This document shows, one piece after another, positions 7,662 through 32,676 of a stretch of 34,442 bases of DNA (position 1 is its first letter; each line of letters starts with the position of its first letter). The stretch spans positions 1 to 34,442 of the forward strand of contig JANJWS010000096.1 in NCBI GenBank assembly GCA_024709425.1, given 5' to 3'. Made by a program: the position numbers and the translations under genes. The stretch is from Thiobacillus sp. (lineage in GTDB: Bacteria > Pseudomonadota > Gammaproteobacteria > Burkholderiales > Thiobacillaceae). Below the pieces are notes generated by a model that saw only the letters and a program-made list of their open reading frames with translations, was not told where the DNA came from and ran no database searches.

Positions 7662-8327
7662 ATGTCCCAGACCCCTCTGCCGCGCCGGCAGTCAGGCTTC
7701 ACCCTGATCGAGATCGCGATCGTGCTGGTCATCATCGGCTTGCTGCTCGGCGGCATCCTGAAGGGACAGGAACTCATCACGCAAGGCCGCATTCGCAACG
7801 TCTCCAACGATTTTCAGTCGGTGACCGCCGCCATCAACCTGTACCAGGACCGTTACAGGGCATTGCCTGGGGACGACCCAAGTGCGGCAACACGGTGGAC
7901 CGCCACGGGTAGTACCACGACGAGCGGGAGCGGGGATGGCACAATCGGCACAGGGACTGCTGGAAGCCCCGCCTATAATTCCACGACAGCTACCGACGAA
8001 TCCCGGCTCTTCTGGCAGCACTTGCGCCTCGCAGGTCTTGTCGGCGGCCCCACAACCACGGGGGCGGTAGGTACTGCAAACCCTCCCAACGCGGCATCCG
8101 GCATTACCGGAGTACAAAATGGTGCATTCGGCATTAATGGAATTGTGATTTGCTCCAACAATCTACCAGCAAAAATTGCACAGGCAATCGATACCCAGTT
8201 TGACGACGGTATCGCCTCAACGGGCACAGTGCGCGGGACGACAGGAACAACCGCAGGTACTACTGCCCCAACGGATAATTACATTGATGATGGAGCCAAT
8301 TTTTATGTCGTGTGCAAGGCACCATAG
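7662..8327 (+). CDS. Type IV prepilin-like protein, stand-alone
   Basis: A 221-residue prepilin. The leader MSQTPLPRRQSG is followed by FTLIEIAIVLVIIGLLLGG, with the conserved Glu at +5. The ATG at 7662 is chosen because a GGAG at 7649-7652 lies nine bases upstream; ATGs at 7605 and 7647 would give unusually long leaders. The mature domain holds a QDRYRALPGDD segment, common in betaproteobacterial pilins, then a Ser/Thr/Gly-rich low-complexity stretch (about 75-110). Two cysteines (VICSN and VVCKAP, the latter near the C-terminus) could close the usual disulfide loop. The 3' third of the gene is clearly richer in A/T than its neighbours. No assembly genes adjoin it on either side; it could use the machine at 2-4864. 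Confidence 0.88.
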   Translation: MSQTPLPRRQSGFTLIEIAIVLVIIGLLLGGILKGQELITQGRIRNVSNDFQSVTAAINLYQDRYRALPGDDPSAATRWTATGSTTTSGSGDGTIGTGTAGSPAYNSTTATDESRLFWQHLRLAGLVGGPTTTGAVGTANPPNAASGITGVQNGAFGINGIVICSNNLPAKIAQAIDTQFDDGIASTGTVRGTTGTTAGTTAPTDNYIDDGANFYVVCKAP

Positions 8328-27462: not shown

Positions 27463-27469
27463 AAAAAGT

Positions 27470-27564
27470 GGCGAGCCAGAACCCCGGCACTGGCATGGAT
27501 CGCTGGGGCTGCTTCCTTCCGGACCTGACCCGGTTCACGATTTGGCCATGCGGGGAGGCCCGCC
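27470..27564 (-). ncRNA. ffs: Signal recognition particle 4.5S RNA
   Basis: The minus strand carries GTCAGGTCCGGAAGGAAGCA, the universal SRP RNA apical domain that binds Ffh. The flanks pair as a long hairpin: GGCGGGCC at the 5' end with GGCTCGCC at the 3' end, and CATGG and CCCCG segments with CCATG and CGGGG. Ends are set from this pairing and may be off by a few bases. A five-T run (minus strand, 27463-27467) follows the 3' end and can end transcription. The place beside dnaX is common in bacteria. Confidence 0.95.
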
Positions 27565-27570
27565 ATGGGC

Positions 27571-27576
27571 ATTTTA
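27571..27576 (-). promoter_or_regulatory. -10 box of ffs
   Basis: TAAAAT on the minus strand ends seven bases before the inferred 5' end of the 4.5S RNA. No good -35 hexamer is seen. Confidence 0.45.
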
Positions 27577-27590
27577 CCCCGGAAGCGGAC

Positions 27591-28667
27591 CTATTCCTCA
27601 TCCGCCGGCGCGGTCAGTCGGCGTTTTTTCACGGCGTCCGCCAGGAGACGCAACAGCGGCTCGGTGTCCCCCCAGCCGAGGCAGGGATCGGTAATCGACT
27701 TCGCGTATTCCAGCGGCTGTCCCGGCATCAGATCCTGGCGCCCCGGGTTGAGGTGGCTTTCGATCATGACCCCGATGATGCGGCTGTCTCCACCCGCGAC
27801 TTGTCCGGCCACGTCGGCGCCAACGTCCATCTGACGCTGATACTGCTTGCTCGAATTGGCGTGAGAGAAGTCGATCATGAGTTGCTGACGCAAGCCCGCC
27901 GCAGCGAGTTCGGCGCAGGCCTGGTTGACGCTGGGCGCATCGTAGTTGGGGGTCTTGCCACCACGCAGGATGACATGGGTATCTTCATTGCCGGATGTGC
28001 TGAACACGCCGACGTGCCCCGACTTGGTGATCGAAATGAAGTGATGGCGCGCAGCGGCCGCCTTGATGGCATCGACCGCGATCCTGAGGCTGCCGTCGGT
28101 GCCGTTCTTGAACCCGACCGGGCACGACAGGCCGGAGGCGAGCTGACGATGCGACTGCGACTCGGTGGTGCGCGCGCCGATTGCCCCCCAGCTCACAAGA
28201 TCCGCAATGTATTGCGGCGAGATCAGGTCGAGGAATTCCGTCGCGCACGGCAGGCCGATCTCGTTGATTTCGAGCAGAAGCTTGCGTGCGAGACGCAAGC
28301 CCTCGTTGATGTCGAAGCTTTCGTCCAGGTGCGGGTCGTTGATCAGCCCCTTCCAGCCTACCGTGGTACGCGGCTTCTCGAAGTACACCCGCATGATCAC
28401 GATGAGATCGTGCATCAGTTCATCGGCGAGCGGCTTGAGCTTCCTGGCGTAATCGAGTGCAGCAGCGGGATCGTGGATCGAGCAGGGGCCGACGACGATG
28501 AACATGCGGTCGTCGGCGCCGCGAAGCACGTCATGGATCGCGGTTCGCGCATGCGCCACGTGGGAGAGCACGGCCTCGCTGGCGCGCAATTCGCGCATGA
28601 TCTGCATCGGAGCGAGCAGTTCGCCGCTTTGCTCGATGCGGGTGTCGTCGGTTCGGGTGGCGTGCAT
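27591..28667 (-). CDS. aroG: 3-deoxy-7-phosphoheptulonate (DAHP) synthase, class I
   Basis: First enzyme of the shikimate pathway: phosphoenolpyruvate plus erythrose 4-phosphate to DAHP. 358 residues, the size of E. coli AroG/AroF/AroH. Motifs: VVGPCSIHDPAAALDYA, the MRVYFEKPRTTVGWKGLINDP loop, GFKNGTDGSLRIAVDAI and DFSHANSSK. The metal ligands Cys, His, Glu and Asp appear in the expected contexts. Which amino acid inhibits it cannot be read safely. Upstream lie a leader peptide gene and a terminator (28711-28832), so transcription is very likely controlled by attenuation through Phe and/or Tyr supply. Confidence 0.96.
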   Translation of the reverse strand: MHATRTDDTRIEQSGELLAPMQIMRELRASEAVLSHVAHARTAIHDVLRGADDRMFIVVGPCSIHDPAAALDYARKLKPLADELMHDLIVIMRVYFEKPRTTVGWKGLINDPHLDESFDINEGLRLARKLLLEINEIGLPCATEFLDLISPQYIADLVSWGAIGARTTESQSHRQLASGLSCPVGFKNGTDGSLRIAVDAIKAAAARHHFISITKSGHVGVFSTSGNEDTHVILRGGKTPNYDAPSVNQACAELAAAGLRQQLMIDFSHANSSKQYQRQMDVGADVAGQVAGGDSRIIGVMIESHLNPGRQDLMPGQPLEYAKSITDPCLGWGDTEPLLRLLADAVKKRRLTAPADEE

Positions 28668-28710
28668 GGTCAGGCTCCGTTCGTTGGATCGGCCCGTGGC
28701 AGCAATACCA

Positions 28711-28744
28711 AAACGAAAAAACCGCCAGCGGACTGGCGGTTTCG
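28711..28744 (-). terminator. Attenuator terminator in the aroG leader
   Basis: On the minus strand the stem AAACCGCCAG/CTGGCGGTTT (plus-strand arms about 28721-28729 and 28734-28742, loop of 4) is followed by a TTTTTTCGTTTT tract (28711-28720). This is a strong rho-independent terminator located between the leader peptide and aroG. Its 5' arm can instead pair with GGCGGT inside the leader ORF (28777-28782). Confidence 0.85.
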
Positions 28745-28763
28745 TTAGGCTATGCTACGTACT

Positions 28764-28832
28764 TCAGTGCCTCCCGACCGCCTGTGGCGTGGGATAAAAA
28801 AAACGGTCAAAGAAGTATGCGGCACGGTTCAT
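28764..28832 (-). CDS. Aromatic-rich leader peptide of aroG
   Basis: A 22-codon ORF starting MNRAAYFFDRFFYP and ending at 28764, about 96 bases before aroG. Six of eight consecutive codons (residues 6-13) are Phe or Tyr, as in the pheL-type leaders that stall ribosomes when charged tRNA is short. GACCG within the run (28804-28808) can pair with CGGTC (28776-28780), and that second segment overlaps the one that competes for the terminator arm. So the four-segment logic of classical attenuation is present. The Shine-Dalgarno is weak (GGTAGA). The promoter is not clear. Confidence 0.75.
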   Translation of the reverse strand: MNRAAYFFDRFFYPTPQAVGRH

Positions 28833-28941
28833 GCGTGGCAGTCTACCAAAACCCGGCGGATGCTGCCAGGCATGCCCGCACGTGGCTGGTCGCGCCTCGG
28901 CGGCACGGCACCCGACGCACCATGCGAACATGGAGAATAGT

Positions 28942-31900
28942 GTGGAAATGACGGCAAACCTGACAGGGAATCGGCAGACGGGCGAGGAGCAGCGTCGTGA
29001 CATGCGCTTCCAGGTGTCGCAGCCGGCCCTCATCACACAGCCGGGTTACGCGGAGATCCCCTGTGAGATCCGTGACTTCTGCCTCGGTGGTCTGTTCCTG
29101 AAGTTCACTCATCCCGAATCCGCGATCGCGGCGCTCGCCCAGCGCGCGGGTGCAGAGGTCGAGATTGTCTTCACCTCCGCGACGCTTTCGCCGCCGACCA
29201 CATTTCGCATGGCGGCGCTGCTCAAGCGTCTCGGCCCACTCGGTATCGGTGTTGCCTTCGTTCGGCAGCCCACCGAAGCCTTGCGTTCGCTGCAGAAACT
29301 GCGCATGGCGAGCCACCGGCAGAAGCTCGCGGCACTGCCGTCCGGCGACGCGTCTCCCCATCTGCGCGACGCCAGCACGGCACTTCTGAACGAGGCCCTT
29401 TTGCAGGCCCACGAACAGTCCCAGCGCCAGCTGACCGATCGGCTCAACAACGCCGCGCTTCATGCTGCCGGCATCTCCGAGCACAGCGGCCTGCTGGCCG
29501 CCGTCCCGGAATTCGCCCGGTACGCCGGACAGGTCAGGGAGCGTTTCGCCAAACAGGTCATGGATGCCGTGAAACATGTCCGCCCCGTTCGCACCCAGGC
29601 GACCCGCGACCACACATCCGGCGGGCTCGCCTTGGTCGACGAAACGGATTTCGAGGACTGGCTCGCCACGTCGTCGGAGGCATCACGTCTGGAGGAACAG
29701 TTCCAGGAACAGCTCATGGACCTCGAACCACGCATTGGCCAGCTGTTCGCCTTTGCCTGCGACCATGGCAACAATCCGTTCGGACCGGCCGTGATCCTCC
29801 ATGCGTACCGTGCCGCACTGGAAGACGTCCCGGTACTCCCGCGGGCGCGCCAGGTCGCCTACGTGACATTGCGCGAAGTACTGGGCTCGCAACTGGCGCC
29901 GCTCTACGCCGAACTGCTCGCGATGCTGCCGGTCTCCGAGGCCGAGACGCTGCAGCGCCATCCTGACGTCGCCAGCGCGCCTGGGCGGCCCGAGCAGACT
30001 CCCGACCAGCCCGCTCCGGACATATCCGTGGCCCCCGGTTCCCCGGCGGCGCCCACGGGACAGCGCGGGGCGCTCGGCCGGCTGGCAAGTACATTGTTCG
30101 ATTTCTTTCGCAGCCAGCCGCCTGCGGCAGGCGCGCCCGCCCACGCGGGTCCTGCGGACAGGGTGCACCCGGCCGCTCCGGCAACCACTGGCCATGCACC
30201 CCAGTCCCGGAGTGCGCCCATCTCCGCAGCCGCGACACAAGGCGTCGCCGCGACTTCCGGATCGCCCGTGCTCGAACGCCTCGCCCGATCGGGTGCACTG
30301 CCCGCCGCACTCACCCAGGACATGCAGCGTTCGGTCGACATGTTCGGCGCACTGTTCGACACCATGCACGCGGAGCGATCGGTCGACGCCGGCATGCGCC
30401 CGCTCTTCCAACAATTGGAGAGCAGCCTCGCCCGGCTGGCGCTGTCCGACCCGCAATTCCTCAGCTCCCCTTCGCACCCGGCGCACAAGGTGCTGAATAC
30501 GCTCGACCGCATCAGCATGGTCGCCGACGACGACGGGAGGATCACCGACCAGCGCCTGTTGCGGCTGATGCAGCGCTGGACCGACCGCATCAACACCGAA
30601 GCCGACAAGAATCCAGGGGTGTTCGACGAAGCACGCATCCAGCTCGAACGCGTCGTAAAGCCACTGATGCATGAGCGCAGCGCGCGTATTTTCCGCTTGC
30701 AGGAAATGTGCGAAGGCCGTCAGCGCGCGGAAGTTGCAAAACACGGCATCCTGCAGGCATTGCTGCGGCGGCTGGGTGAACGCCCGGCCCCCAACGCGGT
30801 GATCGAACTCCTGAATGGGGGTTGGCGAAACGTGCTGCTGATGGCCGAATTGCGCCACGGGGCGGACAGTGATTCCGCGCGCGATGCCTGGCAGGTGCTC
30901 GAACAGCTGAGCGCCTGGCTGGATCCGGCACATCCGGCACCCTCGGCCGCGCAGGTGCAGACTCTGCTGCAGCGCATCGATGAGGCGCTAACCCACGTGT
31001 GCGCCGACAAGCTCGCCCAGGACCGCATCATCGACCAGCTCGCCGCACTGCTGTTCGATGAGGACAAGTCGCGGCACCCGCGTACGCCGGTCGCCGCGCG
31101 CCTCGACGATGCCGCGGACGACAGCCTGACCGGAATCCAGGACGAACTGGCCGAGCGCCTGCGTGTCGGCGACTGGCTTCAGTTCAAATCGCCGGACGCG
31201 CCGCTCAACCTGATCTGGATCGGTGACCAGCCGCCCGTCTATGTTTTCGCCAACTACCGGGGCATCAAGAAGCTCGACCTCAGGCGCCAGGAACTGCTGC
31301 AGGCACTGGAGGAAGGTCGTGCGCAGTGGACCGAGGATCTCGAGCTGCCGCTGATGGATCGCTCCTACAGCGCCATGATCCAGAAGATGCAGCGTGACCT
31401 GTTGTGGCGCTCGACGCACGACACCGGCACCGGCCTGCTCAACCGCAAGAGCTTTTTCCGCGCCATCCGCCGCCACTGGCTGCGCAGCCGGCGCCCGGAT
31501 AGCGGCTTCGCCGTGGTCGTGATCCAGCTCGACATCGCCAGTCCGGCCAACGAACCCGCAAACGCCGACATCCGCACCGCCATCCTGCGTGAGCTTGCGC
31601 AGTGGCTGCCCGAAAGCCTGCTGCCGCGCGTGCCCCTCGCCCGCGCGGGCGAATCCGGCCTCGCCTTCTGGATCGAGGTCTCGGACCGCAGTGTCGCCGA
31701 AACCCAGGTCCACGCCCTGCTCCAGGCCATTGCGGCTCGTCCCCACGAAATCGCCGGCGTACGCTATCGCGTCCAGGGTGCGGCAGGCCTCATGTGGGTC
31801 CCCGATGCGCTCGACCCTGAAGGTTATTACGACAACGCCAACGCTGCCTGCGCCCGCGCGCGCGAGTCCGGCACGCACGTCATGGGCTACGGCCAGGAAA

Positions 31901-32676
31901 CCGAAGATCGCAGCGTGGAGGCGCTCGCCGAGCAGGCGCACCGACTCACCGCCATCCTCACCAACAACGAACTGAGCCTGAACTGCCAGCCGGTCATCAC
32001 CCTGGGCGACGACACCCGTTCACCGGTGTACCACGAGGTGCTGCTCCATCCCGACACCCGCAGCGAGCTGCCTATCGCCACGCGCGACCTGATCGCCGTC
32101 GCCGAGCGCCTGCAGCGCATCACCGAGATCGACCGCTGGGTGACGCGAAGCGTGCTGCACTGGATGCGCGCGCACCCCGAGCAGACCGCCCGCCTCGGCG
32201 GCCTGTCGATCAACCTTTCGGGGCAGTCCGTCACCAACCCGCTGTTCCTCAAGTTCCTGCTCGCCGAACTGGTCCAGGGTGACATTCCAGGCAACAAGCT
32301 GATTTTCGAGATCAGCGAAGCCGACGCGGTCGAAGGCCACGCGCAGACGCAGCTGTTCATGCGCCAGTTGCAGCGTCACGGCTGCCGCTTCACACTGGAC
32401 GAGTTCGGCACCGGCGCCAGTTCCTATACGCGCCTGAAGAGCATGAAACTCGATTTCCTCAAGATCGACCGTGCCCTGGTGCGCGAACTCGGCACCAGCA
32501 TGATCGACGAGGCGCTGGTGCGCTCGATCCTGGAAACCGGCAACTTCCTAGGCATCCGCACCGTCGCCGGATTTGTCGAGGACGCGGATACGCTCGCCAA
32601 GCTGGGCGAGATCGGAGTCGACTGCGTGCAGGGATATTTTATCGAGGAGCCGAAGCCGCTGGAGAGTCTGGCCTGA
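28942..32676 (+). CDS. PilZ-DUF1631-degenerate GGDEF-degenerate EAL protein
   Basis: About 1244 residues, with no membrane segment seen. PilZ-like domain at about 17-115 (RRDMRFQVSQPALI, then a CLGGLFLKF strand), a long helical DUF1631 region (about 120-800), a GGDEF-like domain (about 815-975, THDTGTGLLNRKSFF) and an EAL domain (about 1003-1240). The GGDEF motif is AGESG (902-906). EAL reads EVL (E1032). The DDFGTG block is DEFGTG (1153-1158), and the AEGVE block is AGFVE with Gly 1210 in place of the usual Glu. Synthase activity is therefore unlikely and phosphodiesterase activity doubtful; c-di-GMP binding, as in FimX or LapD, is more likely. The GTG at 28942 has a GGAG six bases upstream; ATGs at 28930 and 28948 are alternatives. 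It is divergent from aroG. Confidence 0.88.
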   Translation: MEMTANLTGNRQTGEEQRRDMRFQVSQPALITQPGYAEIPCEIRDFCLGGLFLKFTHPESAIAALAQRAGAEVEIVFTSATLSPPTTFRMAALLKRLGPLGIGVAFVRQPTEALRSLQKLRMASHRQKLAALPSGDASPHLRDASTALLNEALLQAHEQSQRQLTDRLNNAALHAAGISEHSGLLAAVPEFARYAGQVRERFAKQVMDAVKHVRPVRTQATRDHTSGGLALVDETDFEDWLATSSEASRLEEQFQEQLMDLEPRIGQLFAFACDHGNNPFGPAVILHAYRAALEDVPVLPRARQVAYVTLREVLGSQLAPLYAELLAMLPVSEAETLQRHPDVASAPGRPEQTPDQPAPDISVAPGSPAAPTGQRGALGRLASTLFDFFRSQPPAAGAPAHAGPADRVHPAAPATTGHAPQSRSAPISAAATQGVAATSGSPVLERLARSGALPAALTQDMQRSVDMFGALFDTMHAERSVDAGMRPLFQQLESSLARLALSDPQFLSSPSHPAHKVLNTLDRISMVADDDGRITDQRLLRLMQRWTDRINTEADKNPGVFDEARIQLERVVKPLMHERSARIFRLQEMCEGRQRAEVAKHGILQALLRRLGERPAPNAVIELLNGGWRNVLLMAELRHGADSDSARDAWQVLEQLSAWLDPAHPAPSAAQVQTLLQRIDEALTHVCADKLAQDRIIDQLAALLFDEDKSRHPRTPVAARLDDAADDSLTGIQDELAERLRVGDWLQFKSPDAPLNLIWIGDQPPVYVFANYRGIKKLDLRRQELLQALEEGRAQWTEDLELPLMDRSYSAMIQKMQRDLLWRSTHDTGTGLLNRKSFFRAIRRHWLRSRRPDSGFAVVVIQLDIASPANEPANADIRTAILRELAQWLPESLLPRVPLARAGESGLAFWIEVSDRSVAETQVHALLQAIAARPHEIAGVRYRVQGAAGLMWVPDALDPEGYYDNANAACARARESGTHVMGYGQETEDRSVEALAEQAHRLTAILTNNELSLNCQPVITLGDDTRSPVYHEVLLHPDTRSELPIATRDLIAVAERLQRITEIDRWVTRSVLHWMRAHPEQTARLGGLSINLSGQSVTNPLFLKFLLAELVQGDIPGNKLIFEISEADAVEGHAQTQLFMRQLQRHGCRFTLDEFGTGASSYTRLKSMKLDFLKIDRALVRELGTSMIDEALVRSILETGNFLGIRTVAGFVEDADTLAKLGEIGVDCVQGYFIEEPKPLESLA

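Follow-up and report, generated by a model that had tools for sequence, protein, structure and literature searches.

Escherichia coli aroG is under TyrR control, and the enterobacterial pheL and pheM leaders encode leader peptides. Attenuation at these two leaders, which belong to pheA and pheST, responds to charged tRNA-Phe according to the part of PMC11802643 that is available. Here we describe an aromatic-codon leader and an intrinsic terminator which precede a type I DAHP synthase gene in a Thiobacillus-like beta-proteobacterium and which would follow the same leader-peptide and attenuation logic. It differs from pheL and pheM in that the enzyme under control would be DAHP synthase, the common first step, in that Tyr and Trp codons are mixed in, and in that the leader mRNA is predicted to be leaderless.

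Among tested systems, the closest to a leader of this kind on a DAHP synthase gene is aroR-aroF of Corynebacterium glutamicum, where a Phe-Tyr-Phe leader before the gene acts through ribosome stalling (PMC4046766 and PMC11802643, accessible passages); AroR is reported in the latter to respond to Phe limitation only. That host is an actinobacterium with a Phe-Tyr-Phe leader, whereas the leaders described here typically have five to seven aromatic codons out of 12, the two systems being likened by description. Aromatic-codon uORFs before shikimate genes have likewise been predicted in other lineages: the uORFC-13-1 motif before aroF in Acholeplasma, which has a ribosome-binding site (PMC8632094, in part), and a pair of Phe- and Tyr-containing uORFs on shikimate genes that came from a screen of five genomes, which according to the passages of PMC6429828 at hand include no beta-proteobacterium. 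As here, attenuation of aromatic genes has been predicted in proteobacteria, for Shewanella aroF and Vibrio aroA-tyrA (PMC2659441 and PMC1173090, in part), but these cases concern other genes or classes. Table 7 of PMC1173090 gives a putative attenuator for the tyrA supraoperon of Bordetella parapertussis, a member of the same order; the cluster concerned runs from gyrA to himD and contains tyrA, not a DAHP synthase gene. The accessible passages of PMC2659441 and PMC1173090 hold no leader description for any of these predictions. A word search of the main text of the Naville and Gautheret terminator survey (PMC2965389) returned no aroG, DAHP or phenylalanine.

Among the matches listed in our search of open-access main texts, several of them available in part, no attenuator of a beta-proteobacterial aroG was found. 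In our judgement the principle is known from pheL-type systems, and what is new is the family on a new lineage, the mixed aromatic codons and the predicted leaderless start. As regards the last of these, the mycobacterial polycysteine ORFs are reportedly leaderless attenuators, going by the title of a reference. The attenuator RNA of Sinorhizobium meliloti trpL (rnTrpL) begins with the leader ATG (PMC7298713, accessible part). These examples involve other amino acids and other classes, and leaderlessness is a prediction in the present case.

Sequence sets and searches

Loci were taken from two overlapping protein-search sets of 30 loci and 80 named loci; L030 and L071, in which the match or the contig is cut, were excluded from the 110. 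A 90% identity cut gave 111 non-redundant upstream regions, of which 110 have a leader with a start codon and a stop close by (L088 does not). The automatic frame choice was wrong in L092, L102, L103, L107 and L201, and counts were redone with a proper ORF demanded. Alignment A1 contains the window and 41 of 46 representatives; L007, L037, L052, L063 and L070 were omitted, L081 and L095 were trimmed by hand and 12 further loci were left unplaced by the script. Covariance model R1 was built from the leader only (42 sequences, no aroG sequence) and was run against 399 whole genomes of the order; the broader model R2 was built from 100 sequences. All p values ignore kinship.

The locus in the window

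The window is the whole stretch of DNA analysed, 34,442 nucleotides in length. On its minus strand a predicted extended -10 element, a 22-codon ORF and an intrinsic terminator follow one another between 28848 and 28716, with the DAHP synthase gene 48 nt further on (Table 1). The aromatic-codon leader that the first-pass annotation had placed before aroG is confirmed: the 22-residue ORF reads through to its stop codon as described, and the pairing segments lie where they had been put, with GACCG at 28808-28804, CGGTC at 28780-28776, GGCGGT at 28782-28777 and ACCGCC at 28740-28735. The terminator (28743-28718) is the sole one detected by scanning the minus strand within 27500-30000. A scan of the window for the TyrR palindrome, allowing up to three mismatches, gave no site near aroG; the two matches in the window, at 7840 and 19227, are at chance level.

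Table 1. Features of the leader region and the gene that follows it (window coordinates).
Feature	Positions	Strand	Remarks
Candidate -35 hexamer CTGGCA	28864..28869	-	18 nt before the -10; TTGGCG in many Thiobacillus relatives
Extended -10 TGGTAGACT	28840..28848	-	Predicted; 7 nt before the leader ATG
Leader ORF, 22 codons and stop, MNRAAYFFDRFFYPTPQAVGRH	28764..28832	-	Predicted leaderless start
Aromatic codon run TAC TTC TTT GAC CGT TTT TTT TAT (Y F F D R F F Y)	28794..28817	-	Proposed stall site
Segment 1 CCCACGCC (Pro-Thr-Pro codons)	28786..28793	-	From the 42-sequence alignment; pairs with GGCG..GGG of segment 2
Segment 1 of the first-pass annotation, GACCG	28804..28808	-	Can pair with 28776-28780; pairing not conserved
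Segment 2 GGCGGTCGGGAGG, antiterminator 5' side	28770..28782	-	Ends 3 nt before the stop codon
Segment 3 AAACCGCCAG, terminator 5' arm	28733..28742	-	Common to terminator and antiterminator
Segment 4 CTGGCGGTTT, terminator 3' arm	28719..28728	-	
Terminator T tract	28716..28721	-	
Type I DAHP synthase gene (aroG-like), 358 aa, proposed to be controlled	27591..28667	-	PF00793, TIGR00034

The product of the aroG-like gene scores 320.5 bits with PF00793 and 533.4 bits with TIGR00034 (aroFGH), the latter over the cut-off. With NCBI's models it scores 562 for the AroG equivalog, just short of the cut-off of 568, and 509 for the AroH subfamily, where 463 suffices, so that the feedback class of this DAHP synthase is not settled by name.

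We note that a bacterial small SRP RNA (27467-27564, minus strand, 76.8 bits) lies between aroG and an ORF that we take to be dnaX-like. A divergent gene on the plus strand (28831-32676) has DUF1631, GGDEF and EAL domains, and its start region faces the aroG leader promoter.

Occurrence in relatives

Named relatives include Thiobacillus, Parasulfuritortus, Hydrogenophilus, Tepidiphilus and Gallionellaceae. In 77 of the 80 named loci a terminator is present with a GGCGG-like segment upstream; when frames are assigned by the initial automatic procedure, 65 of these have at least four aromatic codons in the 12 preceding that segment and 74 have at least three. The element is lacking in two of 196 upstream regions (L101 and L108). 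The ORF and the terminator pairings are conserved in relatives, which speaks for the first-pass reading of the leader.

At E ≤ 0.01, R1 matched 129 of the 399 genomes of the order, and its loci stand before a DAHP synthase gene in all 30 that were fetched automatically and in all 84 that were examined (24 are common to both groups). The corresponding figures for R2 are 137 genomes with a match and 262 without. At E ≤ 6.4e-6, R2 retains 103 genomes from 14 families (f1, f3, f4, f8, f10, f11, f12, f13, f20, f23, f30, f32, f40 and f49), and the matched place adjoins DAHP synthase in 103 of 103. The first R2 match away from DAHP synthase is that in G342 (L308), with an E value of 1.0e-5; among 20 further loci, five are without DAHP synthase (L308 together with L291, L292, L295 and L297) and L293 holds a paralogue without the leader. 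Of the two gene associations that of R1 is the cleaner, because R2 was built partly from the same matches.

In a sample of the class, 30 of 369 genomes match at E ≤ 0.01, and the seven matches below 1e-4 all adjoin DAHP synthase. The 23 weaker loci of this sample that were fetched contain no DAHP synthase, two weaker matches having no locus, and matches above an E value of about 1e-4 were therefore discarded. Beyond the order, the class sample adds four matches that adjoin DAHP synthase, three in f63 and one in f68.

Predicted leader peptide and the amino acids it may sense

Over the 111 upstream regions the leader frame has 5.80 aromatic codons per 12, compared with 1.68 and 2.15 in the other two frames. 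The value for the 110 proper-ORF leaders is 5.81, with at least four in 99 of them, and shuffled sequences subjected to the same frame choice give 3.29 (s.d. 1.26). The ratio of in-frame TTY to TTR codons is 427:5 in the leaders versus 5585:1019 in the shuffles. The leader is a short, presumably translated ORF that is rich in codons for end products of the pathway; a frequent form in Thiobacillus is xxFFFSRFYPTPQAVGRR. Fewer than four aromatic codons per 12 are found in 11 of the 110 leaders. Four of these (L102 with its duplicate L135, L107, L129 and L103) retain the terminator and segment 2, but the 12 codons ahead of segment 2 include just one or two that are aromatic. We also note that the Phe run of Thiobacillus thioparus DSM 505 (L037:1334-1400) is one T longer than in the close relatives L005 and L040. 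The reading frame of the leader is thereby lost after Phe-Phe-Phe, with TAG next; the extra T is either a real variant or an assembly error.

Phe codons are present in all 110 leaders, Tyr codons in 93 and Trp codons in 42, with codon totals of 427:165:47 in which Phe dominates. The first-pass annotation had suggested from a mix of Phe and Tyr codons that both amino acids are sensed; both are indeed represented, but the codons are mainly those of Phe, Tyr is not found in every leader and Trp occurs as well. It is a serious possibility, if short of a probable one, that the attenuator senses Phe only and carries the Tyr and Trp codons as tolerated filler, which is what has been reported for the Tyr of C. 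glutamicum AroR. The dominance of Phe would agree with this, as would the statement in the available part of PMC11802643 that C. glutamicum aroF is unaffected by Tyr availability, and no link was found between Trp codons and the possession of a single DAHP synthase (16/39 versus 23/41, p = 0.19). Against the filler explanation, Tyr and Trp make up 18% and 5.3% of the non-Phe core residues, compared with 1.4% and 0.8% in five proteins of the window (2423 residues), and Trp codons occur in ten of ten sampled genomes in each of the families f23 and f49.

We tentatively suggest that one leaderless mini-ORF may read the charging of the Phe, Tyr and, in several families, Trp tRNAs and so set the level of the common first enzyme. 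Among 80 genomes surveyed, 39 contain a single type I-alpha copy (E ≤ 1e-20) and three contain PF01474 (type II; G333, G595 and G704), two of the three being among the 39; no type I-alpha or type II DAHP synthase other than the attenuated gene was therefore found in 37 of the 80, some of the assemblies being incomplete. If the suggestion is correct, the ribosome would, on account of these 37 genomes, stand in for the split into three isozymes and for repression by TyrR and TrpR.

RNA pairing

The local folding energies are -17.5 kcal/mol for the terminator and -20.1 kcal/mol for the antiterminator stretch, and the 221-nt region is more stable than 198 of its 200 dinucleotide shuffles (z = -2.48). 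The conserved feature is the triad GGCGG/CCGCC/GGCGG, in which the leader GGCGG can pair with the 5' arm of the terminator. The intrinsic terminator core CCGCC/GGCGG pairs in 110 to 111 of the 111 upstream regions and the mutually exclusive antiterminator core GGCGG:CCGCC in 108 to 111, in line with the competing helices proposed in the first-pass annotation. The GGCGG of segment 2 is found in all three codon phases (86, 15 and 9 of 110), and it is therefore the RNA and not the peptide that is conserved at this position.

Two pairs of the terminator covary from A-U to G-C (65/31 and 90/8 of 99), and the pair beside the core changes from A-U (76) to G-C (29). The flank of segment 2 tends to follow the terminator pair (41/17 against 4/22; Fisher 3e-6, uncorrected for kinship). 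In the model-fitted alignment, changes on both sides are seen in 9 of 17 pairs, compared with 5.2 in shuffles.

Each of the seven pairs between CCCACGCC and segment 2 is kept in 35 to 41 of the 42 sequences aligned. Order-wide, no upstream partner of segment 2 performs better than shuffled sequence (0.81 versus 0.80, p = 0.10). A general 1:2 hairpin for the order is thus not supported above shuffled upstream sequence, despite the changes on both sides of its columns in the model-fitted alignment; in the window itself, folding in the absence of a ribosome gives an antiterminator probability of 0.05, as expected of a protective 1:2 hairpin. The first-pass annotation had taken GACCG, within the aromatic run, as segment 1. 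This pairing is possible in the window, but its five column pairs match in 2, 11, 24, 24 and 19 of the 42 sequences; GACCG was dropped as the general partner of segment 2, being neither conserved in these sequences nor above shuffles order-wide.

It is very improbable that the element is a plain terminator, or a terminator yielding a stand-alone small RNA, with a T-rich ORF ahead of it by chance. The aromatic run is T-rich, so that shuffled sequences also give some 3.3 aromatic codons per 12, and the terminated leader alone would be an RNA of roughly 115 nt; on the other hand, the upstream neighbour in the window is divergent, which leaves no gene transcript to end, and the purity of the TTY:TTR ratio, the occurrence of GGCGG in three phases and the unbroken association with one enzyme family all argue against chance. 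A metabolite-binding riboswitch or a protein-bound leader with an incidental ORF, to which the near-invariance of the GGCGG/CCGCC/GGCGG core across the order might point, is likewise very improbable, since the model has no conserved structured domain beyond the triad and a weak 1:2 hairpin, no family of Rfam 15 reaches its gathering score at the leader (Phe_leader RF01859, 17.1 bits against 55; Leu_leader, 21.4 against 50), the invariant bases are exactly those common to the two alternative helices, and the Tyr codons vary synonymously (TAT 89, TAC 76).

Predicted promoter and proposed mechanism

In our view a ribosome-mediated transcription attenuator very probably controls the DAHP synthase gene. 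The first-pass annotation had reached this reading for the window, and the conserved aromatic run, terminator and competing antiterminator all point to it.

In 67 of the 111 upstream regions the best -10 element precedes a leader start codon by 6-8 nt, and in 77 it does so by 4-11 nt, the control for the wider interval being 12% in shuffled upstreams; TGnTAnnnT is exact in 69. The spacing is unfit in 34 upstreams, and some leaders have alternative start codons. Because the extended -10 sits 6-8 nt before the start in those 67, the leader mRNA is predicted to be leaderless, and transcription would start at or beside the leader start codon. For the transcript to start downstream of the leader would count against the first-pass reading; the promoter prediction favours a start at or near the leader AUG.

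From the position of the -10, RNA polymerase would start at, or a base or two from, the leader AUG, and the leaderless or near-leaderless 5' end would load a ribosome that translates the leader while the polymerase proceeds. When aromatic aminoacyl-tRNA is scarce (Phe in the first place, probably also Tyr and, in other families, Trp), the ribosome would stall in the aromatic run with its front edge just short of segment 2, and segment 2 could then pair with segment 3 and allow DAHP synthase to be transcribed. With charged tRNAs the ribosome would reach the stop codon and cover segment 2, upon which segments 3 and 4 would pair and transcription would end.

In E. coli the ribosome covers 12 nt ahead of the A-site codon. 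In 84 of the 110 leaders, 8-11 nt separate the last aromatic codon from segment 2, and a median of 11 nt lies between segment 2 and the stop codon; given these spacings and an assumed 12-nt front footprint, segment 2 would be just free on stalling and covered when the ribosome is at the stop. In masked-ribosome folding of the window leader, the nascent antiterminator probability is 1.0 with the ribosome on the last aromatic codon, falls to 0.0 with it at the stop, and is 0.05 in its absence. For 107 of the 111 leaders (the other four have no stop near segment 2) the mean values are 0.59 stalled, 0.17 at the stop and 0.40 without a ribosome. With the same assumed footprint, the stalled value exceeds 0.5 in 63 of the 107 and the value at the stop is below 0.1 in 84, and some leaders, L136 and L137 among them, do not switch in the manner that the model requires. 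As these means are mixed, the simple switching model does not fit all leaders.

The element is the likely regulator of the enzyme with which aromatic synthesis begins across much of a large bacterial order; it would yield a family for Rfam and account for short transcripts upstream of aroG. The leaders form a natural series (mainly Phe, Phe with Tyr, Phe with Tyr and Trp, and decayed) with which to test how many amino acids one leader senses, and the predicted leaderless leader mRNAs would provide a test set for initiation without a Shine-Dalgarno sequence in proteobacteria.

Paralogues and losses

R2 found no such leader at 37 non-attenuated DAHP synthase copies, which come from the same genomes or from sister genomes; this control excludes five tandem second copies in f23 and the second copy in G335, which is itself attenuated (L290). 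The sole R2 match among the 37 (L261, 21.4 bits, E = 0.01) is on the strand opposite to the gene. Short ORFs upstream of the paralogues reach top aromatic scores of 6 (L247) and 5 (L249 and L272) by chance, and a terminator-like string is present in four of the 37 upstreams; in L249 such a string lies right before the gene with no aromatic run ahead of it. The genome of the window has a second DAHP synthase (G000:C105), 63% identical and without the element, and searching the window assembly gave no other credible copy of the element. A tree of 137 proteins places the attenuated copies in groups of 77, 12 and 10 with one single, and the other copies in their own groups of 19, 13 and 3 with two singles.

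Two genomes represent decayed states of the element. In G164 (L289, identical to L088; 25.7 bits, E = 4e-4) the promoter and terminator are kept with no proper leader, and in G036 (L275), the enzyme of which is 78% identical, the promoter-like motif TGCTAGCAT is kept and no leader or terminator is seen. No element was seen, by eye or with R2, in twelve further upstreams from genomes that lack a good match; the best score there is 18.6 bits (L282). In view of these two genomes and twelve upstreams, the element is patchy, common in the order but not universal. In five genomes of f23 (G057, G187, G284, G343 and G372), two tandem DAHP synthase genes stand directly after the attenuator and both may be controlled by it.
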